IMG/VR virus record: IMGVR_UViG_3300044834_000101
Coordinates: 1-51,323 of that record
From: a virus
Strand: one strand, 5' to 3'
Length of the DNA: 51,323 nucleotides
The notes under the pieces: generated by a model
What the model was told of the DNA's origin: nothing
Seen by the model: only the letters and a program-made list of their open reading frames with translations
Database searches by the model: none
Made by a program: the position numbers and the translations under genes
In this document: piece after piece, positions 21,083 through 46,949 of the stretch
Numbering within the stretch: position 1 is the stretch's first letter
Layout of the letters: each line of letters opens with the position of its first letter

Positions 21083-21089
21083 GACTATC
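21083..21089 (-). promoter_or_regulatory. GATAGTC late-start element (endolysin)
   Basis: GATAGTC ends 7 nt before the endolysin ATG (element, CGCCCGCT spacer region, ATG), in place of a Shine-Dalgarno. Confidence 0.65.
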
Positions 21090-21101
21090 GGCGGACGTGC
21101 G

Positions 21102-21482
21102 CTATTGGCGGCAGATGGTGATGATCGGCTCGACGGTGTCGCAGACAGGCTCGGGCGGGTTGATCAGCGAGCCCGGCTCGTCCGGTTTCGGCTCGGGGTT
21201 CGGCCGCGAGACTGGCGGCGGGTCCTGCACCGGCGGGTGGCCGTCGCCCCCTTCGCCGTTTCCGTCACGCTGGGGCGGGCGCGACGGCCGGTCTGGCGAC
21301 CGGGGAGTGGTTCCCGGCGATCGACCACCCCCTTCGGCGCGCCCCTGCGAGGGGCCGTGCGCCTTCGGCTGCTTCTGCACCGCGTCCGGCGCGGAGAGCG
21401 CCGAGTAGAGCGCCGGGACCGCGAGCAGCGCGAGTAGCGCGATCAGCGCCGCGATCCGTACCAGCCGGTCGGAGCGCGTCAC
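21102..21482 (-). CDS. Membrane-anchored Pro-rich protein, 126 aa (lysis cassette)
   Basis: The GTG start (MTRSDRLVRIAALIALLALL) overlaps the upstream gene's stop. One N-terminal membrane segment is followed by a Pro/Gly/Asp-rich extracellular tail with two cysteines near the end (EPVCDTVEPIITICRQ). Its position between the holin candidate and the endolysin suggests a lysis role (spanin-like or accessory), but no family assignment is possible. Confidence 0.6.
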   Translation of the reverse strand: MTRSDRLVRIAALIALLALLAVPALYSALSAPDAVQKQPKAHGPSQGRAEGGGRSPGTTPRSPDRPSRPPQRDGNGEGGDGHPPVQDPPPVSRPNPEPKPDEPGSLINPPEPVCDTVEPIITICRQ

Positions 21483-21799
21483 TGACCTGGCCCCGCCAGC
21501 AGGGTCACGATCCAACCGGACGCGCCGACCGCACCGACCGTGACGGTGATGTAGACGATGAAGTTCCTCTTGCGCTCGCGGGCCTCTTCGATCTTGGCCT
21601 GCTCCTTCTCCTTGCGCTCTTCCTCGCGGCGCTCGGCGTCTCGCTCGCGGGCGTCTTGCCATTCCTGACGCAGGTTGGACAGGCGCCCATGGATCCCCGC
21701 GACCGCGCCCTTGACCTCGGCGACGTCGTCCTTGAGCCCACCGATCTCGGCCTCGAAGCGCCCGAGCTCGCGCGCCACATCAGCCTCCATCGTGCTCAT
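21479..21799 (-). CDS. Holin-like protein with coiled coil and C-terminal membrane helix, 106 aa
   Basis: It starts MSTMEADVARELGRFEAEIG. Residues about 5-75 form a charged coiled coil (ERREEERKEKEQAKIEEARE), followed by a single membrane helix at about 80-102 (FIVYITVTVGAVGASGWIV). This shape (N-terminal coiled coil, one C-terminal span) occurs in actinophage holin-like proteins located beside endolysins. An ATG 25 nt upstream, out of frame, follows a GATAGTC element, so a short leader ORF may couple to it. Confidence 0.65.
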   Translation of the reverse strand: MSTMEADVARELGRFEAEIGGLKDDVAEVKGAVAGIHGRLSNLRQEWQDARERDAERREEERKEKEQAKIEEARERKRNFIVYITVTVGAVGASGWIVTLLAGPGQ

Positions 21800-21824
21800 G
21801 GTTTGACCACCCGCCTCGTGTCAT
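21780..21824 (-). CDS. Possible 14-aa leader ORF before the holin-like gene
   Basis: The ATG at 21822-21824 lies 8 nt after a GATAGTC element, just as the other late genes do, and encodes MTRGGWSNHEHDGG, ending inside the holin-like gene in another frame. It may be a leader peptide on a leaderless transcript that lets ribosomes reach the next ATG. Confidence 0.3.
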   Translation of the reverse strand: MTRGGWSNHEHDGG

Positions 21825-21832
21825 CGAGCGGG

Positions 21833-21839
21833 GACTATC
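21833..21839 (-). promoter_or_regulatory. GATAGTC late-start element (lysis operon)
   Basis: It overlaps the TGA stop of the upstream tail gene (TGATAGTC). The nearest ATG, 8 nt on, opens the 14-aa leader ORF; the holin-like ATG is 33 nt on. Confidence 0.55.
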
Positions 21840-23505
21840 AGCGCCCGAACGTCGCAACCTCGACCGCGAGTTGCTGCCGGGCGTTGAGAACTTCGATCAG
21901 GTCGGCGCCGAGCCCCAGCTCGAGGCGGGTGGACACCTTCCCGGCGCTGATCGTCGCCTCGACACGCTTCAACTGAAACTCGTCGCGGCCGGGGGCGAAC
22001 CACGGCAGGTTCGGCAGGTCGGTCACCTTGATCCGGTCGATGCCGGACCGCAGCAGATAGGCGGGCTTGCGGCCGCCGCCGGGCAGCCCCACCGGGACGC
22101 TCGTTACGGCGGACCCCGACGCGCGCGCGGCACGCTCCGACAGGGCGAGCAGGAACGCGCCGTAGGTGCGGGCTGCCGCGGCGCTGCCTTCGCCCATCGT
22201 GACGGGGAGGGTGCGGTCGCCGACGTCCGTCTCGGCCAGCTCGGGCACGTCGCGGGTGACGACGACCGTGCGTGAGCCGTGGGCGCCGTCGGTGTAGCTG
22301 ACCTCCGCGCGGTTGAACAGACGGGTGAGGTCCTCCTCGACCTCGAGCTGGTCGAAGTCCCTCCGGGCGCTGTGACATGTCGCTTTCGTCGGCAGCGCCC
22401 GGAAGTCGAACGCGGGGTCGCCGCCGAACGCGCTTCGCGAAGGCCAGGTGCCCCAGTGCCAGCCGCCGGCGAGGAGCGCCTGGTCGGCGAGGATCTTCTC
22501 GGCCTCGGTCGCGTCGAACGCGACAGCATGAGGAACCTCGAACCCGGTCGCTTCCTCGACGATCCCGCGCTGGATCCCCCGCACGCGGCGCAACACGTCG
22601 CCGGCGATGTCGCTGGGCAGGAAGCGCGTCAGGCCGTGGCGGCCGACGACCGCGACGTTGGTCCAGTCCGACCGCCACTCCGAGTCGCCGGTGAACGTTC
22701 CCGTCCAGACCAGCTGGAGCAGCGCATAGACCCGGTCTGCGCTAGCCGTCGCGAGGACTCCGCTGACGCTCGTTTGGGAGATGTCGCCGGTCGTGTCGAT
22801 GCTTGAGGCGACATCGTCCGAGGACAGCACGAGCTGGGCGCCCCAGTCGGCGTTCGTGAGGAGGGTCGACCCGGTTTCCCGGTCGTCGTACGTGTAGTGC
22901 ACGGCGCCGATCGGGATGCCCTGGGCGTCGTACCACGCTTCGGCTAGGTCGTGAATTGCGCCCGCGGTGGACGACAGGCGCGTGAACGACAACACCAGCG
23001 CCGGCACGCCCTCGCCGGACGGCGCAGCCGCGACGCTGCCGGACAGCTTGTACGTCGGAACCAGGAGTGGGTCACCGAGCAGCGCTTGGCGATCCAGCGA
23101 CGGCGCCCCCCACCGGGACAGGTCGCAGTCACGCCAGATTTCGCGGACCGTCGTCTCCTTGAACTTCGCGCCGAAGCCCTCCCCGGCGATAGTGACGCCG
23201 CTGGCGCCGGCGAGCTTCCGGGCGACCCGCTGGACGCGGCCGTCGAACACCGATTCGAGCCCGAGGATCACCTGTACGCGCTCGCCGCGCTTGACGCCGC
23301 CGTCGCGGGGGAGGCCGATATGGGCGGCCTCGCAGCCGCCGGGGTCGACATTCGACCACGACAGGCCGTCCTCGACCCACGGCGTCGCGTCGTCGCGGCC
23401 GATGATCACCCTGATCGCGGGCGGCTGCGAGCCGTTGCCGACCTGCAGGTCGTACGAGGCCGCGGCCGCGGCGGACAGGTTCTGGGCAAGCAACGGAACG
23501 GTCAT
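21838..23505 (-). CDS. Minor tail/baseplate-like protein, 555 aa
   Basis: The start is taken at the ATG 23503-23505 (MTVPLLAQNLSAAAAASYDL), 9 nt after a GATAGTC element; the open frame further upstream runs antisense to the divergent tail gene. The sequence is beta-rich with VQVILGLESVFDGRVQRVAR near the N-terminus, resembling baseplate hub/tail-associated proteins encoded downstream of the tape measure in actinophages. No lytic domain is visible. Identification is mostly by position and fold pattern. Confidence 0.65.
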   Translation of the reverse strand: MTVPLLAQNLSAAAAASYDLQVGNGSQPPAIRVIIGRDDATPWVEDGLSWSNVDPGGCEAAHIGLPRDGGVKRGERVQVILGLESVFDGRVQRVARKLAGASGVTIAGEGFGAKFKETTVREIWRDCDLSRWGAPSLDRQALLGDPLLVPTYKLSGSVAAAPSGEGVPALVLSFTRLSSTAGAIHDLAEAWYDAQGIPIGAVHYTYDDRETGSTLLTNADWGAQLVLSSDDVASSIDTTGDISQTSVSGVLATASADRVYALLQLVWTGTFTGDSEWRSDWTNVAVVGRHGLTRFLPSDIAGDVLRRVRGIQRGIVEEATGFEVPHAVAFDATEAEKILADQALLAGGWHWGTWPSRSAFGGDPAFDFRALPTKATCHSARRDFDQLEVEEDLTRLFNRAEVSYTDGAHGSRTVVVTRDVPELAETDVGDRTLPVTMGEGSAAAARTYGAFLLALSERAARASGSAVTSVPVGLPGGGRKPAYLLRSGIDRIKVTDLPNLPWFAPGRDEFQLKRVEATISAGKVSTRLELGLGADLIEVLNARQQLAVEVATFGR

Positions 23506-23514
23506 CGCCCCGGC

Positions 23515-23521
23515 GACTATC
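23515..23521 (-). promoter_or_regulatory. GATAGTC late-start element (minor tail gene)
   Basis: It lies 9 nt before the minor-tail ATG, the widest spacing seen. It shares a 57-nt divergent intergenic region with the plus-strand copy. Confidence 0.55.
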
Positions 23522-23548
23522 CAGTTCAGAAGCCCTACCGCCAGGACC

Positions 23549-23555
23549 GATAGTC
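23549..23555 (+). promoter_or_regulatory. GATAGTC late-start element on the plus strand
   Basis: It stands 7 nt before the ATG of the only plus-strand structural gene. The element follows the orientation of the gene, which argues that it is functional rather than a strand-composition effect. Confidence 0.65.
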
Positions 23556-23562
23556 GCGGCCA

Positions 23563-25566
23563 ATGGCGGACTTCACCTTCCAGGTCGGCAGCCTCGACCT
23601 GACCGACTATGTGCGCGTGCAGCCCGGCGAGGGCCTCGAGCCCTACGACCCCGACGCGGTCGCGCCCGCGTTCACCGACAATCCGATCGCGGAGGGCGGC
23701 CAGCTCACCAACGAGCGGGTGTCGATCGAGGAGCGCGTCTTCCCGCTGATCATGAACAACGGCAGCGTCCCTCAGCTGAGGGCGCTGGAGCAGCAGCTCA
23801 ACCGCGAGCTGGCCCGCACGCCGCTGCAGGTGCTGTGGAAGCCGCCCGGCGGCACCCACACGATCTACGACCTCGAGGCGGGCCGGTTCGAGCCGAACTA
23901 CAACTACTACCGCGACCGCAAGGGCTGGAACGCCGGCCAGCTGCGGCTATGGACGCAGCCGTATGGGCACGGCGGAACGCAACGTGTGGTGGCCACGGCA
24001 GCCGGGACCGGGGCGGCCATGGTGCTGCTGCTGCCTTCCCCGATCTTGGGCGACGTGTCCGCGCGACCTGTGGTGAGGCTGCAACAGGGATCTCAGATCG
24101 GCCCGTACGGCCGAGTGCTCGCGGTCGCGGCCCTTCCCGATGCGTCCTATCGGGCGCTGATTCCCGCCGCGAGCCTGAACGCGGCGACCGTCATCGGCGC
24201 GTCGGGGGCGCACGCGAGCCAGTACGCCCGCATGCGCGTGCTGGGCGCCAATCCGGAGATCAGCGCGACCTTTTCGATGGGGGCCGCGTCGCTCTATGCC
24301 GGCCGGTCGCATCGAATCCTGGCCGTGGCGCGCGGGGACTACCAGCTGTACGCGGTCGACCACAGCAAGCAGATCATTGGGCCGGGTGCGGTGGCGTCGG
24401 TGTCTCGCGACGGCGGCTGGGGTGTCGTCGACCTCGGGGTGTGGCATCCGCCGCGAGACCCGGCGCTGGCGACCATCACGCTCGGGCTTGCTGCCGGACC
24501 GGCGTCATACCGGTGGCACCAGGCAGCGCCGTCTCCTTTCATCGACGCGGTCCAGGTCACGGCGGTGTTCGTGGCGCCGGAGGACTCAGCGGTGGTCGTG
24601 CTCGACAAGGAACTCGGCCTAGGCGACCTGCTCGACTCGGATTCGTTCGACAGCCTGGGCCCGGGGGACGTAGATCGGCCTCTCACGGACACCTTCGCAC
24701 GCCTCGGCGGCCAGTGGGCGCTGCCGCCGATCGCGGCGATGGGTTCCCTCCCGCTGCAGCTGGTGGGCGCATCGCAAAGCGCTCGGGCTGTGATGGCGAC
24801 GACGCAGGAGATGCGAACGCTGGCGAACACGATCCTGAGCGTTCCGTCCCACGACCTGGCGGCGGTCGAGGCGCTGTTCTCGGTGGGGAGCCAGCCGATC
24901 TTCGGGCGTCCGAGCGTGATGGTGGGCGTCCATGTCTGCTCGGCTTCGGCGGTGTTGCCGGGCGGGACGATTTTCTCGGGAGGGGCCGTCGAGCTCATCG
25001 GGAACGGGTCCGGGGCGGTGCTTCAGTCGTTCTCTCTCCTCGGAGACACCAGGGACTCCAGCAGCCCCGCCACGGGGGTCTTCCTCTCATCCCGAGCGCT
25101 CAACTCCTTCAAGCTGACGTATCCGCGCAACAGCGGCGGGAACTCCTTCCTCGTGCAGCTCGAGGCCGGCGGGAGCGTGCACGCTTCGATCATGATGCCC
25201 GGCGGAGCCGCCGCGCCCGCCGATCTCTTCGGAGTACAGGTCCGCGCGACGACAGCAGCCACGGGAGGCTGGGTGCCCGGCTGCGACGCGGTCCGGGCTG
25301 TAAGCATCCCGAAGGCCGTCGCGTCATCGCATTTGCCGAACGACCGGTACGTCGTCGATGAGGTCACAGGGTCGCGGCGGCGGGAGACGGCGGCGTCGGT
25401 GTGGAGCCGCGACCTCGCGTTCGACGCGCGAGGCGGCGACCTCCGGCTCGGGCCGGGGACGGCCGCGGCAGTCGCGGTACTCGCGATGCCGTTCGACGAG
25501 GGCATCGCGAACGACACGCTGGCGGTCGAGGTTTCCGCGGGCGAGCGTTTCCGGTTCGCGCGCTAG
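23563..25566 (+). CDS. Tail protein (distal-tail-like N-terminus), plus strand
   Basis: A 667-aa protein starting MADFTFQVGSLDLTDYVRVQ. The first 140 residues (LDLTDYVRVQ...NERVSIEERVFPLIMNNG... LQVLWKPPGGTHTIYDLEAG) resemble the N-terminal domain of siphovirus distal tail/minor tail proteins. The rest is beta-rich and may be a receptor-binding or jelly-roll region. It sits between the tape measure and the other tail gene but is inverted relative to both. It ends 39 nt from the tape-measure stop, with no strong terminator in between. Confidence 0.7.
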   Translation: MADFTFQVGSLDLTDYVRVQPGEGLEPYDPDAVAPAFTDNPIAEGGQLTNERVSIEERVFPLIMNNGSVPQLRALEQQLNRELARTPLQVLWKPPGGTHTIYDLEAGRFEPNYNYYRDRKGWNAGQLRLWTQPYGHGGTQRVVATAAGTGAAMVLLLPSPILGDVSARPVVRLQQGSQIGPYGRVLAVAALPDASYRALIPAASLNAATVIGASGAHASQYARMRVLGANPEISATFSMGAASLYAGRSHRILAVARGDYQLYAVDHSKQIIGPGAVASVSRDGGWGVVDLGVWHPPRDPALATITLGLAAGPASYRWHQAAPSPFIDAVQVTAVFVAPEDSAVVVLDKELGLGDLLDSDSFDSLGPGDVDRPLTDTFARLGGQWALPPIAAMGSLPLQLVGASQSARAVMATTQEMRTLANTILSVPSHDLAAVEALFSVGSQPIFGRPSVMVGVHVCSASAVLPGGTIFSGGAVELIGNGSGAVLQSFSLLGDTRDSSSPATGVFLSSRALNSFKLTYPRNSGGNSFLVQLEAGGSVHASIMMPGGAAAPADLFGVQVRATTAATGGWVPGCDAVRAVSIPKAVASSHLPNDRYVVDEVTGSRRRETAASVWSRDLAFDARGGDLRLGPGTAAAVAVLAMPFDEGIANDTLAVEVSAGERFRFAR

Positions 25567-31561: not shown

Positions 31562-31568
31562 GACTATC
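31562..31568 (-). promoter_or_regulatory. GATAGTC late-start element (tape measure)
   Basis: It ends 7 nt before the tape-measure ATG, just after the TAG that closes the frameshifted chaperone. No Shine-Dalgarno is present. Confidence 0.65.
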
Positions 31569-31577: not shown

Positions 31578-32185
31578 CTAGAACCCCCTCATAACACGGC
31601 GTTCGCGGTCCATCTTCTGCCACCACTCGTCCGTTTCGCGGTTCGCCCAGCTGTGCGGATCGTCGGCGGTCTTCGACTCGCGTTTGCGCTGCTCGTTCAT
31701 GACGCGGATCCACATCCGCAGCTCGAGCCAGCCGAGCCCACGCCACGTGCGGGGCCCCCAGTGGAAGTGTCGAGTGACCTCGCCGACTACGTCGACGATC
31801 GAGACCGACTCTTGGGAGTCCGTCTCGTACTCGCTGTCCCAGACGTCTTCGCCGCCCGGGTCCTGGTAGGTCCCTCGGCGGCCTCAACGACGTCGCCGCC
31901 GTACACCGTGCCGATGATCTGCACGATCATCTGGATTGACACGGCGGCCGGGAGCCGCTCGAGGTCGGGCTGGTGCACCTGGAAAAGCTCCAGCACACCG
32001 TCGACGAGCTGCTCGATCAGCGCTGCCTGGTCCTCGTCGGCCTCGCCGTCCTGGGTCTGGCCGACCTTCAGCAACAGCAGGAACAGCTCGGCGGGACAGT
32101 CACGCGGCAGCTGGTACGTATCGCCGCCGAGCTTCACTCTGCGCGGCGCGCCTATCAGCTGGTCGAGGTCTGTGATCTCGGTCAC
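31578..32185 (-). CDS. Tail assembly chaperone, -1 frameshift product (GT-like), about 202 aa
   Basis: The frame -1 to the chaperone ORF continues as clear coding sequence (DPGGEDVWDSEYETDSQESV ... HWGPRTWRGLGWLELRMWIR ... DEWWQKMDRER) to a TAG at 31578-31580. It has no start codon of its own near its beginning. The shift must occur after a -1-frame TGA near 31883 and before the zero-frame TAG near 31787; GAGGGA at 31871-31876 is the best candidate slip site. The arrangement is the same as the lambda G/GT pair. Start as for the zero-frame product (GTG 32183-32185). Confidence 0.75.
31787..32185 (-). CDS. Tail assembly chaperone, zero-frame product (G-like), 132 aa
   Basis: It starts with GTG (MTEITDLDQLIGAPRRVKLG), which is fixed by the GATAGTC element exactly 7 nt upstream. 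The core LPRDCPAELFLLLLKVGQTQ ... LIEQLVDGVLELFQVHQ fits actinophage tail-assembly chaperones. The last about 30 residues, after the presumed frameshift site, turn into a low-complexity Arg/Ser/Thr tail, suggesting that the frameshifted form is the selected one. Confidence 0.75.
   Translation of the reverse strand: MTEITDLDQLIGAPRRVKLGGDTYQLPRDCPAELFLLLLKVGQTQDGEADEDQAALIEQLVDGVLELFQVHQPDLERLPAAVSIQMIVQIIGTVYGGDVVEAAEGPTRTRAAKTSGTASTRRTPKSRSRSST
31871..31876 (-). other. Probable -1 ribosomal frameshift site
   Basis: Zero-frame codons GAG GGA become GGG on slipping one base back, so the GGA-reading tRNA can re-pair. Downstream the -1 frame stays open for about 98 codons. The exact slip codon is not proven. 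Confidence 0.5.
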
Positions 32186-32192: not shown

Positions 32193-32199
32193 GACTATC
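32193..32199 (-). promoter_or_regulatory. GATAGTC late-start element (chaperones) with TTCTGAAA repeats
   Basis: It ends 7 nt before the GTG of the chaperone. Upstream are two direct copies of TTCTGAAA (plus strand, 32209-32216 and 32228-32235), an element otherwise seen as a palindrome near 42554. Confidence 0.65.
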
Positions 32200-32240
32200 G
32201 GACGCGACTTCTGAAATTCGGCGCCGCTTCTGAAACAGCA

Positions 32241-33673: not shown

Positions 33674-33694
33674 GCGAGCGCGACTATCGGACGC
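33664..33694 (-). repeat. 31-nt exact repeat with 45314-45344 (copy 1)
   Basis: The sequence covers the first codons (MAE), the spacer and the GATAGTC element, and is identical base for base with the copy inside the protease/scaffold gene. A promoter/start cassette seems to have been copied. Confidence 0.85.
33682..33688 (-). promoter_or_regulatory. GATAGTC late-start element (133-aa gene)
   Basis: It lies 8 nt before the ATG, within the 31-nt repeat. No Shine-Dalgarno. Confidence 0.65.
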
Positions 33695-34211: not shown

Positions 34212-34218
34212 GACTATC
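34212..34218 (-). promoter_or_regulatory. GATAGTC late-start element (tail terminator)
   Basis: Its TAG is also the stop codon of the upstream gene, and it ends 7 nt before the ATG. Confidence 0.6.
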
Positions 34219-35106: not shown

Positions 35107-35113
35107 GACTATC
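35107..35113 (-). promoter_or_regulatory. GATAGTC late-start element (head-tail connector)
   Basis: It ends 6 nt before the ATG, the shortest spacing. It lies in the 22-nt gap after the modification cassette. Confidence 0.6.
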
Positions 35114-36431: not shown

Positions 36432-37219
36432 GGGATCACCATGTGGCAGCCTTCGCAGCCTTGGCGCTTGCCCTCCCACGGCTGCACGGCCCAGGTGCCG
36501 GGCGCGTCGTCGACGTGGCCGATCGCGCCGGCGCCCTCGGCGTCGAGACAGCACGTCGTGACGTTGCCGTCGGCGAGCACGACGCACCACCCGGCGCGCA
36601 GGTATTCGCAGGTGACGGACTGCTCTGGGATCGAGACGGACCAGTCGAGCGCGCCGGCCCAGTCGAACGCGTCGTCGACGAACGAGGCGTTCTTGCCCCA
36701 CAACAGCCCGGCGGCGCCGAGACGGTCGACCGCGATCTTCGCCTTCTCGGGCCGGTGCAGCGACACCCAGATGTTGAGCCGATAGGGCCGGATCGCCTCG
36801 ATCAGCGCTTCGCCGCACAGCAGCCCGTCGCGGCGTTCGTCCTGGGCGAAGATCAGCCCGTTCGTGGACATCGTGATCGGGTTCGTCGGCAGCGCCTCCC
36901 TCGCGATGCGGACCAGGTCGACGAACTCGGGGTGGATGGTGGCTTCGCCGATGCCGGTGAGGGCGAGCTCGTGCTGGGTGCCCTTCGACTCGTAGTGGAC
37001 GGCGTGCGCGATCGCCCGCTCGAAGTTCGCGCTGGTGATGTCGACCTTGTCGCGGCCGAAGCCGCCGCCCTCGGCCAAGGGCAGGACACGCACCCCGTCG
37101 GGGGTTTCGACCTCGATCGGCCGGTCGAGCACCCTCGAGGGGCAGTAGACGCAGGTCAGGTTGCACCGCGACGTCACCTCGATCTGGTGGACGGACGTGA
37201 CGGGACGGGGGTAGCTCAC
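36428..37219 (-). CDS. Radical SAM protein with SPASM-like C-terminus
   Basis: A 263-aa protein. VTSRCNLTCVYCPS (Cys19, Cys23, Cys26) is the radical SAM 4Fe-4S motif, and GIGEATIHPEF the GGE-like SAM-binding segment. The C-terminal CEYLRAGWCVVLADGNVTTC, then CLD...CEGCH, is a SPASM/twitch auxiliary-cluster region. Relatives modify peptides or sugars. It is encoded between two methyltransferase-containing proteins and is translationally coupled on both sides. The substrate cannot be deduced. Confidence 0.9.
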   Translation of the reverse strand: MSYPRPVTSVHQIEVTSRCNLTCVYCPSRVLDRPIEVETPDGVRVLPLAEGGGFGRDKVDITSANFERAIAHAVHYESKGTQHELALTGIGEATIHPEFVDLVRIAREALPTNPITMSTNGLIFAQDERRDGLLCGEALIEAIRPYRLNIWVSLHRPEKAKIAVDRLGAAGLLWGKNASFVDDAFDWAGALDWSVSIPEQSVTCEYLRAGWCVVLADGNVTTCCLDAEGAGAIGHVDDAPGTWAVQPWEGKRQGCEGCHMVIP

Positions 37220-37644
37220 GCGACCTCCTGGCTGTGGCGTCTCTTGCCGTGGCCCTGCTGCGCAGGCCGCGGCAGCCGTGCCGCCCAGTGGGCGGCACGC
37301 GCGGCGAGCAGGATCAGCTCGGACCGCAGCGCGGAGCGGTCGCGGTGGCGGTTCGCGTCGGCGATCGCGTCGAGGTTCACCCGCAGCTGCGGCAACCGGG
37401 CGCCGTGGTCCATCTCCAGCAGCTCACGTTCGATGTCGCAAACGGCCGCCTCAGCGCCGGAAGCGTCGGGCGGGAGCGCCATCGACGCCGCCTTGTCGGC
37501 CCGGACGGTCTTGTCACGCACCCGCTGACGCTCCCTCGCCCGGAACGCCGCCTGTTGGCAGGAGGGCTCGTGGTACTTCTGTGCGGGCGTTTCCGGGGTG
37601 AAGGGGGTTCCGCAGCCCGGATTGGCGCAGAAGCGCTGGTGCAT
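37216..37644 (-). CDS. Zinc-finger-like protein, 142 aa
   Basis: It starts MHQRFCANPGCGTPFTPETP; C-x4-C...H-x3-C (CANPGC ... YHEPSCQ) resembles the small zinc finger of phage proteins with CxxCg..F.....K.YCS..C. The rest is helical and basic. Function unknown; coupled to the radical SAM gene. Confidence 0.6.
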   Translation of the reverse strand: MHQRFCANPGCGTPFTPETPAQKYHEPSCQQAAFRARERQRVRDKTVRADKAASMALPPDASGAEAAVCDIERELLEMDHGARLPQLRVNLDAIADANRHRDRSALRSELILLAARAAHWAARLPRPAQQGHGKRRHSQEVA

Positions 37645-37647
37645 CGC

Positions 37648-39210
37648 CTATGGGGCCTTCACGTCGGGGGTGGCGAGCAGCTCCGTCACCTGGCGGGCGA
37701 CCCCGTCCCAGCCGAGGTCGGCGACCGCCTGCGGGCCCTGCTCGGCCGCCTCGCGCTGCAACGTCTCGCTGGTGAGGGCGTCCACCAGCGCGGCGGCGAA
37801 CCGTTCGCGCCACGCCTCGGCAGGCTCGTCGTCGAGCCTGTCCACGAGAATCCCCGGGTCGCGCACCGTTTCCGGCAGCGCCCCCCACGCCGACGCGACG
37901 ATCGCGCAGCCGGCGGCCTGCGCCTCGAGCGCCGCGATACAGGACGTTTCGTTGAACGGGATGTCGGCGGGGGTGCACCACGACGGGTGCGTCCACACCA
38001 TCGACTCGGCCAGCAGCTTCGCCAGGTCGGGCTGCGAAAGCGACCCGAGCCGTTCGACCCCGTCGCAGTTCTTCTCCAGCTCGCGGCACCGGGCGCGGTG
38101 TTCGCCGATGCGGGGGTTCTGGTCGGCGACGACCTCGTAGAACGGCGAGGAGCAGTACGCGAGCTCGGCGTCGGGGACCTGTTCCCGCACCCGGGGCCAC
38201 AGCTCGAGCAGGATGTCCAGCCCGCGGTCTGGCGACGACGTGTAGACGACGCGGCGGCGGCGTTCGCCGGCGTCCTCGTCGAAGCGGCGGAGGTCGATGC
38301 CGTTGCGGATCCGGGCCACCTTGCCGTTCAGGAACGGGTAGAGGTCGGCGACGTGCTGTTCGTGCCAGCCGGACAGCGTCAGCACCGCGTCGATGCGGTC
38401 GGCGCGGGCGGGGGTGAGGCGGTCGCCGCAGTCGGTGTCGTGCAGCCACAGCAGCCGGCGGTCGCAGTTGAGCGGCCAGTCGAACACCTCCGGCAGCCGC
38501 GACGCGATCACGGCGTGCCGCTCGACGGTGGGGTCGAAGACCGCGACGTTGCGGAACACGACGTCGCGGAAGCAGCCCTCCTCCACGTCGCCGTAGACGG
38601 TCACGACGTGGCCGAGTTCGGACAGTGCGTTAGCGAGCCGCACCGCCGCGGTTTCGGAGCCGCCGAGGCCGCGAGTGACGATGTCGATCGGTGACCACTG
38701 GATGAACGACCGGCCCGTGTAGATGGCGATCTCGCCCTTGCGGTCGGCGGGGCGGTAGGTGGCGGCCGCGATGCCGTCGCCGCCGACGACGAGGTCGTCG
38801 AGGTGGCCGCGTCGGCGGAGCGTGTCGGCGAGGTCGATCGCTCGCAGCGCCCGGAGGTGGTGCGGGTTGCGGCCAGCGCCGAAGGTGCCGTCGGGGGTCG
38901 AGACGAACACCCGGCCGCCGGGCTTCAGCATCCGTTCGGCCGCGGCGAGCAGCTGATCGACGTCGGGGACGTGTTCGATCAGCTCGTACATCACCACCGC
39001 GTCGTACGAGCCGGCTTCGAGGTGGTGTTCGATGTCCTCGGCGCGGCCTTCGACGACCTTGCGGTAGCCGCGGCGCCGTGCCTGGGCGGACGCCTCGGGG
39101 TGGAGTTCTACCCCGTCAAGCACCAGCTCGCCGTCGAAGCGTTCCCGCAGCCACGCGCCTACATAACCGTCGTGGCAGCCGAGGTCCAAAATGCGCAGCG
39201 GTTCAGCCAA
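37648..39210 (-). CDS. Methyltransferase-glycosyltransferase (GT-B) fusion, 520 aa
   Basis: It starts MAEPLRILDLGCHDGYVGAW. Residues 1-170 are a Rossmann methyltransferase (LDLGCHDG, VELHPEAS, YELIEHVPD, VFVSTPDG). From about 180, IAIYTGRSFIQWSPIDIVTR then GLGGSETAAVRLANALSELG begins a glycogen-synthase-like GT-B domain; the C-terminal half contains GIDLRRF, VYTSSPDRGLDILLELW and SCIAALEAQAAGCAIVAS, the GT4-like donor-binding region. It transfers sugars from an activated donor, perhaps methylating them too. Acceptor unknown. Confidence 0.9.
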   Translation of the reverse strand: MAEPLRILDLGCHDGYVGAWLRERFDGELVLDGVELHPEASAQARRRGYRKVVEGRAEDIEHHLEAGSYDAVVMYELIEHVPDVDQLLAAAERMLKPGGRVFVSTPDGTFGAGRNPHHLRALRAIDLADTLRRRGHLDDLVVGGDGIAAATYRPADRKGEIAIYTGRSFIQWSPIDIVTRGLGGSETAAVRLANALSELGHVVTVYGDVEEGCFRDVVFRNVAVFDPTVERHAVIASRLPEVFDWPLNCDRRLLWLHDTDCGDRLTPARADRIDAVLTLSGWHEQHVADLYPFLNGKVARIRNGIDLRRFDEDAGERRRRVVYTSSPDRGLDILLELWPRVREQVPDAELAYCSSPFYEVVADQNPRIGEHRARCRELEKNCDGVERLGSLSQPDLAKLLAESMVWTHPSWCTPADIPFNETSCIAALEAQAAGCAIVASAWGALPETVRDPGILVDRLDDEPAEAWRERFAAALVDALTSETLQREAAEQGPQAVADLGWDGVARQVTELLATPDVKAP

Positions 39211-39448
39211 CCCCCGCTACCTCGCAGTCGCCGGCGAGAACCTCGACCTGGACGGTGCCTGCCTGGCCGGGCTTTCCCTTCACCTGGAAGGCGGTCCAGG
39301 GCAGGTGACAGATCGGCTCGCCGTCGACCTTGACGACGATGCGGGCGTTCTCGCCGAAGAACGGCCGCCCCCGTTCGGGCTTGCTCTCGATGTGCAGCAC
39401 CCCGCGCGGCAGCGTGTCGTCCAGCAGCGTCTCGTTGTGGTCCTCCAT
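39203..39448 (-). CDS. Hypothetical protein, 81 aa
   Basis: The start ATG 39446-39448 (MEDHNETLLDDTLPRGVLHI) is preceded by GGAGGTG; a GTG three codons upstream is possible. Small beta-rich protein (GENARIVVKVDGEPICHLPW, GTVQVEVLAGD). Part of a run of small genes separating the two glycosyltransferase genes. Confidence 0.5.
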   Translation of the reverse strand: MEDHNETLLDDTLPRGVLHIESKPERGRPFFGENARIVVKVDGEPICHLPWTAFQVKGKPGQAGTVQVEVLAGDCEVAGVG

Positions 39449-39450
39449 CG

Positions 39451-39612
39451 TCACCACCTCCTTCGTGCCTTGACGAACAACCGCAGCAGCTTGATCGGGC
39501 CGCTCGCCGTGACGTGCGTCGACCGTTCGCCTTGGCGGCCAGCCGCGAACAGCTCCCAGATCCAGGTGCCGTCGTCCGTGCGCGAGCAGCTGAGCGCCCA
39601 GTTCGGCATCAT
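39451..39612 (-). CDS. Hypothetical protein, 53 aa
   Basis: It starts MMPNWALSCSRTDDGTWIWE, with ATGA coupling to the upstream gene. Beta-rich, ending LLRLFVKARRRW. Unknown function. Confidence 0.5.
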   Translation of the reverse strand: MMPNWALSCSRTDDGTWIWELFAAGRQGERSTHVTASGPIKLLRLFVKARRRW

Positions 39613-39977
39613 GCGACCGTCGCCCCCGACGCCGGCGTCCACACGTCCCTGGGCGGCACTTCGACGCCCATGCCTTCCATCCGTTCGCGGCGGTCGGCGT
39701 CGGCGGCCTCTTCGGCGATCTGGCGGCGCAGGCTGCGCGGCAGCTTCGCCAGCGACTTCGGCGCCGGGGAGGGGACGTACGCCTGCAGGACGGGGTTCCA
39801 GATCCGCATCACTTCGACGCGGCCTCGGAACACTCGGACCATGTAGGCGCCATAGCGGAAGAACCGGGCGCCGTCGTGTGCCGCGACGACACCGCCGACG
39901 GGGTGGCGGCCGCGGCGTTCGTTGCGCGCCGCGCGCTTGCGGCGATCGGCGGCGCTGAGTTTCTGGTGGCGTCTCAT
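39609..39977 (-). CDS. Hypothetical basic protein, 122 aa
   Basis: It starts MRRHQKLSAADRRKRAARNE (ATG overlapping the mini-ORF stop). A strongly basic N-terminus is followed by FFRYGAYMVRVFRGRVEVMR. It may bind nucleic acid or a phosphoglycan. Not recognised. Confidence 0.5.
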   Translation of the reverse strand: MRRHQKLSAADRRKRAARNERRGRHPVGGVVAAHDGARFFRYGAYMVRVFRGRVEVMRIWNPVLQAYVPSPAPKSLAKLPRSLRRQIAEEAADADRRERMEGMGVEVPPRDVWTPASGATVA

Positions 39978-40033
39978 CGGAACCCTGCGGGGGAGCCCTT
40001 CGAGTCGCGGGCGTCGCGGATCTGGTCGGTCAC
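39974..40033 (-). CDS. Possible 19-aa mini-protein
   Basis: A 60-nt ORF (GTG start; MTDQIRDARDSKGSPAGFR) joined by 4-nt overlaps to the genes on both sides, the same coupling as the surrounding genes. It may be translated, or only keep ribosomes moving. Confidence 0.35.
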   Translation of the reverse strand: MTDQIRDARDSKGSPAGFR

Positions 40034-40350
40034 TCGGACTCCTCCGGGATGCGGGTGACCTGCCACGCCTCGGTCGTGCCGGGCGGGCTGTAGAACGGCC
40101 TCATCGCCTTGGTGATCTTGTTGCCAGCCAGGTAGCCAGCGAGGCGGAACGACGCGGCCTTCCCGACCTTCTTCACGACGACCTCGATTCCGCCGGCGCG
40201 GACGGCCTGGCCGAGCTTCAGCTTCGACCGATGCTTGCCACGCAGGTCGTCGCGTGCCTTGTCGGCCGCCTTCTTTTCCTCGCGCGCCTTCTCGCAACGG
40301 TCCTCGGCCTCGGCCAGCTCGAGGGCCTGCTTGGCGGTCAGCCGGCTCAC
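40030..40350 (-). CDS. Hypothetical coiled-coil protein, 106 aa
   Basis: GTG start (MSRLTAKQALELAEAEDRCE). Residues 1-45 form a coiled coil (AREEKKAADKARDDLRGKHR), then a beta-rich part ending WQVTRIPEESE. This arrangement resembles small phage proteins of unknown role. Confidence 0.5.
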   Translation of the reverse strand: MSRLTAKQALELAEAEDRCEKAREEKKAADKARDDLRGKHRSKLKLGQAVRAGGIEVVVKKVGKAASFRLAGYLAGNKITKAMRPFYSPPGTTEAWQVTRIPEESE

Positions 40351-40709
40351 AGGCTTCCCCCCGATCGGCCCGACGGCGTACGCCGCCTCGTCGCCGCTTG
40401 CGCGATGGCCTTGAGCTTCGTGTCGACGTTCGTGTCGACGATCCGTATGACGACCTGCAGATCAGGGGACGAAAACCCCTCGCTGGGCGCCCGGACGTGG
40501 TCGAGCACCCCCGCGGACAGCTGCTCGGCTGTGCGGGCGCCCCGGCGTTCGTAGCGGCGCTGCAGCCGCTCCATCCGGTCGGTGCGAAGGTCGTGGCGGG
40601 CGAGCCTCGCCGCGTCGCGCCGCGGAACGCCGTACAGCCGCCAGGCGCGGTAGTAGGTGCGGAACGAGCCGATCCGCGCGACCTGGCGCGCCGGCGAGGT
40701 CGCCATCAC
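40347..40709 (-). CDS. Hypothetical basic protein, 120 aa
   Basis: Starts at GTG 40707-40709 or the ATG directly after it (MATSPARQVARIGSFRTYYR). Helical, rich in Arg and Tyr (RMERLQRRYERRGARTAEQL). The GTGA overlap with the glycosyltransferase gene indicates co-translation. Function unknown. Confidence 0.5.
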   Translation of the reverse strand: MMATSPARQVARIGSFRTYYRAWRLYGVPRRDAARLARHDLRTDRMERLQRRYERRGARTAEQLSAGVLDHVRAPSEGFSSPDLQVVIRIVDTNVDTKLKAIAQAATRRRTPSGRSGGSL

Positions 40710-42115
40710 GCAGCCTCCTTCATTTCAGTCAGGTGCTCGAGCAGGAACGCGCACCGCGGCAGCACGTCGCCGACCGCAACCGGGTCGGCGACCATGTCCT
40801 CCGGCTTCGTCCCGCCCGTCACGTAGTGCGACGAGTAGCCATCCGGGTCGAGCAGCGGGTCGAGCCGCGAGGCGAGTTCGACGCGTAGCTGCACCACCCG
40901 CGGATGGTCCTGCGCGTAATGAGGGACGTTGCTCAAAACGGCGGCAGCCTTCAGCTGCTCGTCGTGGGCGATCAGCCCGTCGGCGAGCTTCACCACCAGC
41001 TCAGCCGTTTCTTCGCGCTTGAGGTCGCCGCGCCACAGCCTGTATGGCGCCGCGAGCATCGCGTGGCCAGGCACCATCCGGAACACCTCGTCCGCCAGCT
41101 GGCACGCCGCGCGCAGGTCGCCCATCTGCGCGAGCGCGCCGGCGAGAATGACCCGCGGCTTCACGACGTAGTCCGTCGGGTCGATGATCAGGATCGTGTC
41201 CGGCACGCCGCGACGGATCACGTCGCGCGCCCACTCGGCCGCCTTCTGCGGCTCGTTCAGCTCGTAGTGGCACTCCGCCAACGTCAGGTAGCTGTCCGGC
41301 CACGACGGCAGCAGCCGCACCGCCTCGAGGGCGGTGTCGATCGCCTGGTCGGTGCGGCCGACCTCCCGCAACGCGAGCGCGTAGCGGCGGTGGACCTGGG
41401 CGCGCTCCTCATCCCAGCCCGTCTTCAGCTTGAGGTAGCGGCGAAACCACCGCAGCGCATGCTTGGCACGGCCACGCGCCAGCTCCTCGAACCCGAGGTA
41501 GCCGAGCACCCGGGCGTTCTCGGCCTCTTCGACGATCCACTTCCGCAGGATGCGGAGGTTGCGCTGCCCGTCGCCGCCGGGCTGCTTGCGGTGGACCCAC
41601 TCGACAGCGGCCGGGTCGATCATCGAGATGGGCCCGTCGATCAGCTGCGCTTCGTGGACGCGACCCACCCAGCGGCCATGGCCGGCACGCACGAGCCGTT
41701 CGCGACGGAGGCGGCAGATGCAGTTGCCGTGAGGGTCCTGGGCGTAGTCGTAGTCGGCGACCCACGCCACCAGCTCCGGCGGTGACTGCTCGGCGAGACG
41801 GCGCAGCTGGTGGGCGCCACGGATCTCGTCGTCGCAGTCCGCCCAGCAGTACCAGTCGCAGCCGGCTAGCAGGGCGTCGGCGAAGTTGCGGGCGGCGGCG
41901 AAGTCGTCGATCCAGTCGAACCGCTGCACCGTGTACGAGCCGAGGCGGCCGGCGCGGACCTGGGCCTGCGCCCACGTCTCGAAAACCTTGACGGTGTCGT
42001 CGCTGGAGCCGGTGTCGGCGAGCGCGACACGGTCGAACGCGCCTTCGACGGTGGCGAGCAGCCGCGGCAGCGTTTCCGCCTCGTCCTTCGCGATCAGCGC
42101 CAGCCCGACCCTCAC
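40706..42115 (-). CDS. Family-2 glycosyltransferase with TPR-like C-terminal half
   Basis: A 469-aa protein, GTG start (MRVGLALIAKDEAETLPRLL). GT-A motifs: IAKDEAETL, VALADTGSSDDTVKV, WCWADCDDE-like metal-binding acidic cluster (WYCWADCDDEI), and YVHRKQ-like motif (EWVHRKQPGG). From about residue 195 helical repeats (VLGYLGFEELARGRAKHALR, RYALALREVGRTDQAIDTAL) form a TPR-like region, as in SunS-type and many phage GT2 proteins. The last about 60 residues match the N-terminal segment of the 280-aa methyltransferase. Confidence 0.9.
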   Translation of the reverse strand: MRVGLALIAKDEAETLPRLLATVEGAFDRVALADTGSSDDTVKVFETWAQAQVRAGRLGSYTVQRFDWIDDFAAARNFADALLAGCDWYCWADCDDEIRGAHQLRRLAEQSPPELVAWVADYDYAQDPHGNCICRLRRERLVRAGHGRWVGRVHEAQLIDGPISMIDPAAVEWVHRKQPGGDGQRNLRILRKWIVEEAENARVLGYLGFEELARGRAKHALRWFRRYLKLKTGWDEERAQVHRRYALALREVGRTDQAIDTALEAVRLLPSWPDSYLTLAECHYELNEPQKAAEWARDVIRRGVPDTILIIDPTDYVVKPRVILAGALAQMGDLRAACQLADEVFRMVPGHAMLAAPYRLWRGDLKREETAELVVKLADGLIAHDEQLKAAAVLSNVPHYAQDHPRVVQLRVELASRLDPLLDPDGYSSHYVTGGTKPEDMVADPVAVGDVLPRCAFLLEHLTEMKEAA

Positions 42116-42537: not shown

Positions 42538-42544
42538 GACTATC
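42538..42544 (-). promoter_or_regulatory. GATAGTC late-start element (modification cassette)
   Basis: It ends 7 nt before the XRE gene ATG and lies downstream of a strong terminator, so it must provide, or lie close to, a new transcription start. Confidence 0.7.
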
Positions 42545-42553
42545 GGACGCCGC

Positions 42554-42569
42554 TTCTGAAATTTCAGAA
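42554..42569. promoter_or_regulatory. 16-bp perfect palindrome (operator-like)
   Basis: TTCTGAAATTTCAGAA. The half-site TTCTGAAA recurs twice beside the chaperone promoter (32209, 32228), and a 7-base match lies between the divergent tail genes (23525-23531). Likely a protein-binding site; the adjacent XRE protein is a candidate. Confidence 0.6.
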
Positions 42570-42685
42570 CTCTGCGCCCGCTGGTATCCCGCGGGTATAC
42601 CGGCGCCGGCCGCAAACGGCTCTAGCAAGCGGCGCGGGCGTCGCCGCCGTATACCGGCGGAATCCCGGCGGGATCCCGTAAAGGA

Positions 42686-43394: not shown

Positions 43395-43396
43395 GG

Positions 43397-44367: not shown

Positions 44368-44766
44368 TCAGATCAGGTTGGACAGCTGTCGGGGGCTGAC
44401 GAGGATCGAGAAGCGCTCCCCGACGGCGGCGGCCTCGAGGGCCTTGCCGGTGCGCCAGCGAGTCACGCCGGACGCGCCCGCGACCGGGGCGAGCGCCCCG
44501 TTCGAGGAGGCGACGCCGACATCGGCGCCGGGGCCGAGAGAGGCGCCCGCGATCGCCTTGACGATGTTGTCCTGGGCGTAGACGGTCACGTTGCCGTCGA
44601 TCGCCTGGGCGGTGTCCACGACGCCGTACGGCTCGACGCCGTTGGTTGCGATCGGCGCGACCTTCGCCTCGGCGACGGTGCCGATCAGCGCGACGACGTT
44701 CTGGGGCGCGACCACCGACGCGACGCGGCGGGAGTCGATGAAGCCCTTGTGGTCGACGTAGGCCAT
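44368..44766 (-). CDS. Capsid decoration protein (DUF2190-like), 132 aa
   Basis: It starts MAYVDHKGFIDSRRVASVVA. A small beta-rich repeat pattern (VVALIGTVAEAKVAPIATNG, VTVYAQDNIVKAIAGASLGP, GADVGVASSNG) with Gly/Ala turns matches DUF2190/cement-type proteins, which are encoded between protease/scaffold and major capsid genes. The ATG overlaps the protease stop by 1 nt. Confidence 0.75.
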   Translation of the reverse strand: MAYVDHKGFIDSRRVASVVAPQNVVALIGTVAEAKVAPIATNGVEPYGVVDTAQAIDGNVTVYAQDNIVKAIAGASLGPGADVGVASSNGALAPVAGASGVTRWRTGKALEAAAVGERFSILVSPRQLSNLI

Positions 44767-45323
44767 CAGATCCGCCCGTTCGCCATCGAGACGTAGACGT
44801 CGGCGTAGTCGGCGCCCTCGTGGGCGGCGCAGTAAGCCTCGGCGCGCTCGTGGAGGGCCAGCGAGTCGCGGTCGATCTCGGAGTCGCGTTCGCCCGTGCT
44901 GAAGTCGGAGGTGGCGGCCTTGGCCGCCTGGTGGCCGGACGCGCCTAGCGCGGCGGTCGAAACCAGCGGCGGAAGCTCGTCGAGGGCGGCGAGGCAGCCC
45001 GTCTGGTCGGCGTCGTAGTAGCGCTTGTAGTGCGTCTCCATCGCCGGGGCGGCGCGGCCCTGGCGGATGGCGCGGTCGAACGCGGACGCGAAGGTGAGTT
45101 CCTTCAGCTCCTTGACGGCGATGTCGCCGGCGTCGGCACGGTCCTGCAGCGAGAGCGCCTCGGCGCGCGACATGATCGTGTCGCCCTCCGGGGTCTCTAC
45201 GACGCCGCGGAGCGTCTTCGGCTGAACGGCCTGCTCGGCGGCGGCGACGATCGCGTCGAGGTCGGCGCCTTCGTCCAGCTCGAGCGCCTTGGCGATCCTG
45301 GTGAGTTCGTTCGTCTCGGCCAT
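44766..45323 (-). CDS. Scaffold protein from an internal start (nested in the protease gene)
   Basis: Within the protease frame, the ATG 45321-45323 (MAETNELTRIAKALELDEGA) follows a GATAGTC element by 8 nt. It would yield a 185-aa protein equal to the C-terminal scaffold-like domain. Nested scaffolds are known in lambda (C/Nu3) and in Mu (gpI/gpZ). The same 31 nt occur upstream of another genuine gene, supporting use of this start. Confidence 0.65.
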   Translation of the reverse strand: MAETNELTRIAKALELDEGADLDAIVAAAEQAVQPKTLRGVVETPEGDTIMSRAEALSLQDRADAGDIAVKELKELTFASAFDRAIRQGRAAPAMETHYKRYYDADQTGCLAALDELPPLVSTAALGASGHQAAKAATSDFSTGERDSEIDRDSLALHERAEAYCAAHEGADYADVYVSMANGRI

Positions 45324-46256
45324 GCGAGCGCGACTATCGGACGCCGGATCGAGTTCCTCGGGCTTCTCTTGCGAGGCGGCTGCCCAGCCCTCCGGAAGCA
45401 GGTCTTCGCACTTCAGGTCCTTGGCGCGGGCGACCAGGTGGGCCTTCAGGTCGTCGCCGTCTGTGTAGGCGTCGACGGCGGCCTGCAGCTGGTCCTTGTC
45501 GTCGATCGTGGGGAGGTCTGGCGCCTTCAGGAACGGTTCGGTGACCTGGAGGTCGCCGGGGCGGTTCGCGTTGGCCTGGGCGGCAGCGAGCTGCGCGTCG
45601 GCCAGCTCACGCGTAGCCTGCGCCTGCGCGAGCATCTTCTCGTTGAGGTGCGCCAGCTGGTGGGCGTTGAGCGGCACCTCGTCCGGCGCCAGCAGCGCGG
45701 GGACGGCGTCGTCGTCCTCCGGCGGTTCGTCGTCCACCTCGACGGCGAGCTCGCCCGCCGCGGACGCGTACTGCGTCGACAGCGACAGCGCCGGCCAGGG
45801 GAAGAACGGACGGTTCGTCAGCCCGGCGCCGATCAGTTTCGGCCCGACCTTGGTGCCGGTTTCGTCCTGGCCGGCGAGGTTCCAGGTGGGGCTGATGAAC
45901 AGGTAGCGCTTCTTGCGGATCGCGTCGGCGCCGAGGTCAGTCCACTCGACGTCGGCCTTCAGCTCGTCGCCCTCGACGTGCAGGTCGGTGATCCAGCCCG
46001 CCGCGATCGTGGAGCCGCCCTCTTCGGGCGCGTGGTCGAAGTCGATCGCCACGCGCCCGCGCGCGCGGAAGTTCGCGATGAAGCCCTCCAGGACTTCCTT
46101 CGTGATGTTCCAGCGGCCGAAGCGGGGATGCTTGAACCGCCCGACGCGGAACAGCGTGATCCTCGACTTGGGGTCGTCGCCGCCGTCGGCGGCGGCCGCG
46201 AGCTCGGGAAGATCGGCGAGACAGACGAAGTTGTCGTGAGAGTCCGTGTCGGACAT
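44766..46256 (-). CDS. Mu-like prohead protease-scaffold protein
   Basis: A 496-aa protein. The N-terminal about 200 residues match the Mu gpI-type protease: RFGRWNITKEVLEGFIANFR, VAIDFDHAPEEGG, AAGWITDLHVEGDELKADVE and KRYLFISPTW, with Asp-His in DFDH as probable active-site region. The linker is acidic and Pro/Asp-rich, followed by coiled coil (AHLNEKMLAQAQATRELADA) and a C-terminal helical scaffold part. It cleaves itself and the scaffold during head maturation. A GATAGTC element is 7 nt before the ATG. Confidence 0.85.
   Translation of the reverse strand: MSDTDSHDNFVCLADLPELAAAADGGDDPKSRITLFRVGRFKHPRFGRWNITKEVLEGFIANFRARGRVAIDFDHAPEEGGSTIAAGWITDLHVEGDELKADVEWTDLGADAIRKKRYLFISPTWNLAGQDETGTKVGPKLIGAGLTNRPFFPWPALSLSTQYASAAGELAVEVDDEPPEDDDAVPALLAPDEVPLNAHQLAHLNEKMLAQAQATRELADAQLAAAQANANRPGDLQVTEPFLKAPDLPTIDDKDQLQAAVDAYTDGDDLKAHLVARAKDLKCEDLLPEGWAAASQEKPEELDPASDSRARMAETNELTRIAKALELDEGADLDAIVAAAEQAVQPKTLRGVVETPEGDTIMSRAEALSLQDRADAGDIAVKELKELTFASAFDRAIRQGRAAPAMETHYKRYYDADQTGCLAALDELPPLVSTAALGASGHQAAKAATSDFSTGERDSEIDRDSLALHERAEAYCAAHEGADYADVYVSMANGRI
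45314..45344 (-). repeat. 31-nt exact repeat with 33664-33694 (copy 2)
   Basis: Identical to the start region of the 133-aa head-tail gene, but here inside the protease reading frame, at the internal scaffold start. Confidence 0.85.
45332..45338 (-). promoter_or_regulatory. GATAGTC late-start element inside the protease gene
   Basis: It ends 8 nt before the internal ATG and is itself in coding sequence; no stop codon intervenes. Confidence 0.65.
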
Positions 46257-46263
46257 CCCGCGC

Positions 46264-46270
46264 GACTATC
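46264..46270 (-). promoter_or_regulatory. GATAGTC late-start element (protease)
   Basis: It ends 7 nt before the protease ATG in a 31-nt gap. No Shine-Dalgarno. Confidence 0.65.
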
Positions 46271-46287
46271 GGACGGCACTACGGCTG

Positions 46288-46935
46288 CTAGGCCGCGGTC
46301 CTCACCCAGCTGTATGCGGTGTGCACGTGCACACCGAGCGCTTCGGCGATCTGCTGGTACGTCGCACCTTCCGCCCGCAGCCCGCGCGCGCGGGCGCGGA
46401 GTGCCTCACGTTCTTCGCGTGTACGGCCACGACAGTCACGGGCCGGCGGCCGTATAGCGATGTGGGACGGCCGCGCCTCGAACCCGGCGACCTCCATCGC
46501 CGCATTCCACGACCCGAACAGCCGGATCACGGTCGACACGGACGGCCAGCCGGAGCCGCGCGGAGGCGGACACCACTCCGGCGAGAACGGCGGCCGGCCG
46601 TGCTCGGTCGCCCAACTGTTCATCGCCTCGACGACCCGGTCGCGGGTCCACTTCACGCCGCCCGAGTAACGCGCCTCGTAGGCGTAGTTGGCCAGGTAGC
46701 CGGCCTGTTCAGCAGACACGCCGAGGCGCGCAGCGATTTCTCTCCGCTTGAGGCCCTGCGCCCGCAGGCTACGCGCCTCGTCGCGCAACGCATGCCGCGC
46801 GTGCCGGCGCTCGATACACAGGTCAGTGACCCAGCGGTGCGCCCTGTCGGGCGTGACGCCGAGCTCGCGCGCGATCCCGCGGATGGTGCCCCCGTCCTTA
46901 TACAGATCACGTGCCCGTTCGCGCAGGTCGCCCAT
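46288..46935 (-). CDS. Multi-HTH protein with an HNH-associated repeat, 215 aa
   Basis: Three HTH motifs are visible: GTIRGIARELGVTPDRAHRW (about 16-36), KRREIAARLGVSAEQAGYLA (about 58-78) and TYQQIAEALGVHVHTAYSWV (about 192-212). Between them, GRPPFSPEWCPPPRGSGWPS followed by VIRLFGSWNAAMEVAGF is the homing-endonuclease-associated repeat (HNH_repeat) used for DNA binding. No nuclease active site is present. It could be a transcription factor or packaging-site binder; the GATAGTC element is 7 nt upstream. Confidence 0.75.
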   Translation of the reverse strand: MGDLRERARDLYKDGGTIRGIARELGVTPDRAHRWVTDLCIERRHARHALRDEARSLRAQGLKRREIAARLGVSAEQAGYLANYAYEARYSGGVKWTRDRVVEAMNSWATEHGRPPFSPEWCPPPRGSGWPSVSTVIRLFGSWNAAMEVAGFEARPSHIAIRPPARDCRGRTREEREALRARARGLRAEGATYQQIAEALGVHVHTAYSWVRTAA

Positions 46936-46942
46936 GCGAACC

Positions 46943-46949
46943 GACTATC
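46943..46949 (-). promoter_or_regulatory. GATAGTC late-start element (multi-HTH gene)
   Basis: It ends 7 nt before the ATG, in the 21-nt gap after the sigma factor gene. Confidence 0.6.

Follow-up and report, generated by a model that had tools for sequence, protein, structure and literature searches.

A seven-nucleotide element, GATAGTC, recurs just ahead of start codons among the structural genes of a phage represented by IMG/VR virus record IMGVR_UViG_3300044834_000101, analysed here over its positions 1 to 51,323 (51,323 nucleotides (nt), hereafter the window). An earlier note, made from the letters of this DNA, had proposed that GATAGTC is the -10 element of leaderless late promoters, and had named a translational element as the alternative. 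By comparing the window with related phage genomes, we conclude that GATAGTC is very probably a promoter giving rise mostly to leaderless mRNAs: the case for a promoter role is strong, leaderless output is likely, and recognition by a phage-encoded sigma factor is plausible.

Against an expectation of 1.9, the window contains 13 copies of GATAGTC (12 on the minus strand, one on the plus strand), a count reached in none of 100 shuffles. All lie where the earlier note had placed them (Table 1), and the spacing it gave was measured again: an ATG or GTG follows every copy after 6-9 nt, mostly 7. Twelve of the 13 open an open reading frame (ORF) of at least 65 amino acids; the claim that all copies precede gene starts had to be amended at 21833, where the adjacent ATG opens an ORF of only 14 codons and the gene more likely begins at ATG 21799, 33 nt past the motif, after the Shine-Dalgarno (SD)-like sequence GAGGCGGGTGG. 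The site at 23515 places its gene's start codon at 23505 instead of 23859. As noted before for the early genes, no copy occurs left of 21,083, a region with helicase, integrase and exonuclease genes; the label "late" is a good description, if not a perfect one, since in three relatives an integrase gene also carries GATAGTC. One-mismatch variants in the window (e.g. GATCGTC, 29 copies) do not precede starts above background, so that the 7-mer is nearly invariant.

Relatives were retrieved by the motif alone, by scanning 2.9 million viral contigs of IMG/VR with the pattern GTCCGATAGTCN{6,9}ATG. Most of the 119 stretches returned had a single chance match, and those with multiple matches encode homologues of the late proteins of the window (~31-64% identity). 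Four genomes, G001, G002, G003 and G004 (47-50 kb; 65-69% GC), bear 11, 12, 12 and 18 GATAGTCN6-9RTG sites, respectively, on one strand in each. The earlier note had held that its reading would fall if GATAGTC proved equally frequent at random gene positions in relatives; the sites are clearly linked to starts, and a reversed control gave 0 sites in these four genomes. With the window (G000) they make up the five-genome set used below, which has in common a late module of portal, protease/scaffold, capsid and tail genes and a glycosyltransferase; almost none of the early genes of the window is present in G001-G004. A GATAGCC variant occupies the same genes in three further loci (L257, L259 and L260). 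Searches of IMG/VR with single proteins (protease, capsid, tape measure, sigma) found no close relative, and GenBank phages offered no near relative, only distant capsid and portal matches; similarity of the portal to those of Arthrobacter and Gordonia phages hints at an actinobacterial host. We found no published report of a GATAGTC element in the literature.

Across the five genomes GATAGTC occurs 78 times, compared with about two copies expected per genome. A start codon opening an ORF of at least 14 codons lies 5-10 nt downstream of 71 of the 78 copies. No other 7-mer is linked to ATG as strongly as GATAGTC: 61 copies have one 6-8 nt downstream, with a sharp peak at 7. The extended consensus is GTCS-GATAGTC-GCSGGCG-ATG, with C in 90% of sites two positions before the motif (-14 in promoter numbering); the TG of an extended -10 (-15/-14) is accordingly absent. 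Information content per position stays level between -45 and -6, with nothing conserved, and no hexamer is enriched in the -35 window: the most frequent one is present at 15 of 71 sites, whereas random segments gave a mean best of 17.7. This bears out the previous observation that the sites lack a common -35 box. The profile is that of a promoter consisting of a -10 box only, with tight adherence to one consensus over many late genes. A usable SD was found at 0 of 68 GATAGTC starts, versus 38% among the remaining genes and 14% at random positions, a comparison with some circularity, since the motif itself takes up the space of an SD. An origin by chance from TAG stop codons preceding starts was considered and rejected: TAG could terminate an open frame of 60 or more codons at 25 of the 78 sites (of these frames, several are unlikely to be genes), in some cases it doubles as the stop codon of the upstream gene, and the 7-mer itself is left unexplained.

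A location 6-9 nt before the start codon would also suit a translational start signal acting in the mRNA, on the model of the start-associated sequence (SAS) of cluster K mycobacteriophages, whose sequence GGGATAGGAGCCC also holds GATAG and stands 3-7 bp before ATG (PMC3203893). The SAS has an AGGAG core and is thought to be translational, and its extended form (ESAS) adds a separate putative -35/-10 promoter upstream (PMC3203893, PMC11373665). GATAGTC is similarly an exact short repeat just before ATG, in one orientation and many copies, and the ESAS subset with an upstream inverted repeat may be compared with the TTCTGAA element described below. Whereas the SAS marks non-structural genes, GATAGTC marks structural ones; moreover, we found no AGGAG core to pair with 16S rRNA, nor any other complement of the anti-SD, at GATAGTC starts, and the element does not always stand beside a start codon. 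Sites conserved far from the start are instructive in this respect. Upstream of the homologue of gene 31787-32185, GATAGTC is kept in G001 (26364), G002 (28278) and G003 (26892), and the gene starts 82-99 nt after the motif, preceded by a strong SD, GGAGGTGG; the same gene in the window and G004 has the motif at its start and no SD. Similarly, 33-39 nt separate motif and start at G002 31588, G003 23544 and 21833 of the window, with SD-like sequence. In general, orthologous sites without an adjacent ATG have leaders of 20-100 nt, usually with an SD. Within the leaders at G001 26364, G002 28278 and G003 26892 (L158-L166) we also observed CCACCTCC, complementary to the SD GGAGGTGG ~20-35 nt downstream, possibly an SD-sequestering hairpin controlling this tail gene, which lies between those for the minor tail protein and the tape measure.

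Two further observations bear on the choice between DNA and RNA. A stem-loop starts exactly 5 nt after GATAGTC at G002 28278, at G003 26892 and at the unrelated site G004 38988; if its start is taken as the 5' end of the transcript, GATAGT would span -12 to -7, where a -10 element is classically found, and an ATG at the usual spacing would begin at about +3. Secondly, gene 23563-25566, inverted with respect to its homologues in four relatives and 57 bp from its divergent neighbor, cannot be expressed by read-through from the late operon and would need its own promoter, for which GATAGTC is the only candidate there. Given the leadered, SD-bearing orthologous sites and the copy belonging to the inverted gene, we regard GATAGTC almost certainly as a DNA promoter element rather than a ribosome signal, and a purely translational role as very unlikely; these same features, with the stem-loops, lend support to the -10 assignment of the earlier note, to which the extended consensus, the GATAGCC variant and the candidate sigma discussed below are additions.

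The site at 45332, earlier described as an ordinary gene start, is a real in-frame start maintained in relatives with its spacing of 8 nt, and is now corrected to an internal one, inside ORF 44766-46256. It is expected to initiate a 185-residue scaffold-like C-terminal product of the protease ORF. In lambda and Mu, the scaffold is likewise made from inside the protease gene. Paired GATAGTC copies 68 nt apart occur in G003 (14921, 14989) and G002 (40458, 40390), marking two in-frame scaffold starts with products of 231/208 and 225/202 amino acids.

A second repeat accompanies a portion of these sites. The five-genome set has 31 copies of TTCTGAA/TTCAGAA, of which 25 lie no more than 35 bp from a GATAGTC site, and TTCTGAA sometimes flanks GATAGTC on both sides (-15 and +22); judged by this arrangement, it is likely an operator for a subset of GATAGTC promoters. 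Its occurrence bears on another explanation, that GATAGTC is itself the binding site of a phage repressor or activator (stoperator-like), the true promoter lying elsewhere. Such a site could well be a short, exact, asymmetric repeat in one orientation, and these phages do encode helix-turn-helix (HTH) proteins. We nevertheless consider this highly improbable: the spacing to the start codon varies by no more than 1-2 nt, unlike that of dispersed operators, no other promoter-like element is common to the sites, and the TTCTGAA dyad is a far better operator candidate.

As to what reads the promoter, a phage sigma factor is slightly favored over a host sigma. The window encodes two sigma factors whose region 2 model matches exceed the curated cut-off, at 46957-47451 (SigH/extracytoplasmic function (ECF)-like) and 17852-18460 (SigE-like ECF). 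Neither has a tblastn homologue in G001-G004, which rules out the former as a general reader. Its profile comparison with the sigma-2-like family described next was also negative. Upstream of the terminase gene, G001-G004 encode a protein of 134-146 amino acids with the pattern EELVADGICILYGLAAKFEP...GRFSGFAAQFLPRRLGDAW...SLD, resembling sigma regions 2.1-2.3. When compared by profile with 30 actinobacterial sigma region 2 sequences, it gave a score of 23.0 and a collinear alignment; none of 100 shuffled profiles exceeded 16.1, and the reversed profile scored 9.5. A second comparison of this kind gave a similar result. In L331 and L259 the related protein is extended at its C terminus by a stretch that by eye resembles the region 4 HTH, whereas the proteins of GATAGTC phages lack it; absence of region 4 from the factor would account for promoters that have no -35. 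Of 43 viral loci related by their terminase, all 8 that encode the sigma-2-like protein carry the motif (as GATAGCC in L259 and L260, otherwise as GATAGTC), as does 1 of the 35 that do not encode it (L257), an association that sits within one phage clade and is inflated by shared ancestry. A search by the sigma-2-like protein alone, set up as a prediction of motif presence, yielded two additional phage contigs, one with 16 sites over 54 kb and the other with 9 over 30 kb, all on one strand, with a control of 0. Because the window contig ends before the terminase region, its own sigma-2-like gene, if any, is not visible. A 202-residue gene beside an HTH gene in relatives, suspected by synteny of being a sigma homologue, was rejected on sequence. 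G003 also encodes, between its portal and scaffold genes (L164:14226-14573), a 115-residue protein with a LuxR/sigma-region-4-like HTH, which could be a separate sigma4 partner and was not found in sister phages.

Besides the circularity of the SD comparison and the restriction to one clade, several findings weigh against this account. The matches of the small protein to sigma-70 region 2 are weak, all falling under every curated cut-off (E-values: PF04542, 0.013 in G001; in L253, PF04542 0.077, phrog_351 0.0066 and TIGR02937 0.015). Its AlphaFold model is mediocre (mean pLDDT, predicted local distance difference test score, 70), and Foldseek with this model returned no significant match, four E. 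coli sigmaE region 2 entries being among the top ranks at non-significant scores; searching PDB sequences with the sigma-2-like profile found nothing. Two short contigs with divergent versions of the protein, L331 and L332, have the gene and no GATAGYC promoter, and, conversely, L257 has GATAGCC and no sigma-2-like gene in the 12 kb examined. Finally, GATAGT matches TATAAT at four of six positions, including -11A and -7T, and to that extent resembles an ordinary housekeeping -10 of the host.

This last resemblance is central to a further explanation, that the host housekeeping sigma recognizes the same promoter as a leaderless -10, with no phage sigma and with convergence of the phages on one strong version. 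Mycobacteria commonly have leaderless genes with a -10 adjoining the ORF (PMC4633059), and a few GATAGTCG-ATG sites exceed the control in some actinobacterial genomes. Like these mycobacterial genes, the phage genes combine a -10 directly before the ORF with an RTG start and no SD; the mycobacterial -10s, however, are degenerate and cannot be told apart from the -10s ahead of leadered genes (PMC4633059), whereas a single exact 7-mer serves all sites here. Degenerate variants are near-absent, -7T is lost in the GATAGCC version, the conserved residue at -14 is C and not part of the TG of an extended -10, and the motif is linked to the sigma-2-like gene. Furthermore, GATAGTCGN5-7ATG occurs at most 13 times per genome in 396 actinobacterial genomes, compared with 11-18 GATAGTCN6-9RTG sites per ~50 kb phage; none of these genomes is rich in the element, an actinobacterial host being only hinted at. 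We view recognition by the host sigma as a possible but doubtful alternative.

In the mechanism that we favor, GATAGTC would by itself form the complete core of an autonomous late promoter, with GATAGT at -12 to -7 and no -35, and many late genes or small gene groups would have their own copy. Transcription would start ~6-8 nt past the box, placing the 5' end of the mRNA at or a few nt from the start codon, and such mRNAs would be translated as leaderless messages; the smaller share of sites would instead give a short leader, in most cases with an SD. Predominantly leaderless output is likely. The most likely reader would be host core RNA polymerase with a phage-encoded specificity factor: in the relatives the small sigma-region-2-like protein near the terminase genes, usually without region 4, and in the window phage either the same protein, encoded beyond the contig end, or the sigma factor at 46957-47451. 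More tentatively, and with somewhat less than even confidence, we suggest that one lineage of phages of GC-rich bacteria evolved a region-2-only sigma and a -10-only box in parallel to gp55 of T4, with mostly leaderless late messages, promoter choice coupled to SD-independent translation, and box and factor changing together (GATAGTC versus GATAGCC).

The T4 late system is the likest of those known. Its promoters have an 8-bp -10 box, perfect at 32 of 50 sites, and no -35 conservation, and its gp55 is a diverged sigma with region 2 (modelled 2.1-2.4) and no sigma4 equivalent (PMC2988020). A tightly kept -10 box, absence of a -35 and association with late genes are found here too, and the small protein of the relatives, a weakly matched sigma candidate, would resemble gp55 in having region 2 and no region 4. 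The present system differs in its GATAGTC box, GC-rich genome, downstream sequence that is GC-rich rather than AT-rich, and placement suited to leaderless mRNAs; the likeness to the gp55 system is one of promoter layout and of a sigma-like candidate. Middle/late promoters of Thermus phage P23-45 have an extended -10, use host sigmaA, and are favored by the anti-sigma4 protein gp39 (PMC7403470). They are comparable in combining -35-independent middle/late promoters with a phage factor favoring them; GATAGTC differs in lacking the TG of an extended -10, and its candidate factor is sigma-like, not an anti-sigma4.

Table 1. GATAGTC sites, candidate sigma factors and accompanying repeats of the window.
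Feature	Coordinates	Strand	Remarks
GATAGTC	21083..21089	-	7 nt before ATG 21075, amidase/endolysin gene 19981-21075
GATAGTC	21833..21839	-	Downstream of gene 21838-23505; probable promoter with short leader; syntenic sites in three relatives
GATAGTC	23515..23521	-	9 nt before ATG 23505, gene 21838-23505; half of divergent pair
GATAGTC	23549..23555	+	7 nt before ATG 23563; sole plus-strand late gene, 23563-25566
GATAGTC	31562..31568	-	7 nt before ATG 31554, tape measure protein
GATAGTC	32193..32199	-	7 nt before GTG 32185, gene 31787-32185
GATAGTC	33682..33688	-	8 nt before ATG 33673
GATAGTC	34212..34218	-	7 nt before ATG 34204; TAG is stop of gene 34214-34879
GATAGTC	35107..35113	-	6 nt before ATG 35100, head-tail adaptor
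GATAGTC	42538..42544	-	7 nt before ATG 42530; 65-residue gene kept in relatives
GATAGTC	45332..45338	-	8 nt before in-frame ATG 45323 within protease ORF 44766-46256
GATAGTC	46264..46270	-	7 nt before ATG 46256, head maturation protease
GATAGTC	46943..46949	-	7 nt before ATG 46935, HTH/homing-endonuclease-like gene
Phage sigma factor, regions 2 and 4, nearest SigH/ECF models	46957..47451	-	Candidate reader in window phage
Second phage sigma factor, ECF SigE-like	17852..18460	-	Alternative candidate reader; true start probably ~45 codons in
Dyad TTCTGAAATTTCAGAA, TTCTGAA family, probable operator	42553..42570		Just upstream of 42538 site
Two TTTCAGAAG copies	32208-32216, 32227-32235	-	Upstream of 32193 site
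TTCAGAAG	23524..23532	+	Between two divergent GATAGTC sites

Other features of the window are recorded here. The protein with an HTH and homing-endonuclease repeats (46288-46935) is encoded amid head genes with a GATAGTC of its own. Between the head-tail connector and capsid genes, a cluster of methyltransferase, radical SAM and glycosyltransferase genes (35365-42115) contains no GATAGTC in the window, and most of its genes have 50-59% identity in relatives. The Mu-like portal protein (47737-51042) carries a fused zeta-toxin/AAA domain at its C terminus (residues 889-1068; Pfam E-value 4e-26). A 108-nt tandem duplication, 96% identical, lies inside a predicted gene at 4823-5038.

If the proposed mechanism is correct, GATAGTC would provide a sequence-only map of late transcription starts and true protein starts across an uncultured phage family, revealing hidden internal genes such as that of the scaffold. 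The box and its factor would constitute a minimal sigma/promoter pair with which to study promoter choice by region 2 alone, and these phages would represent a case in which the late program may depend on leaderless translation.

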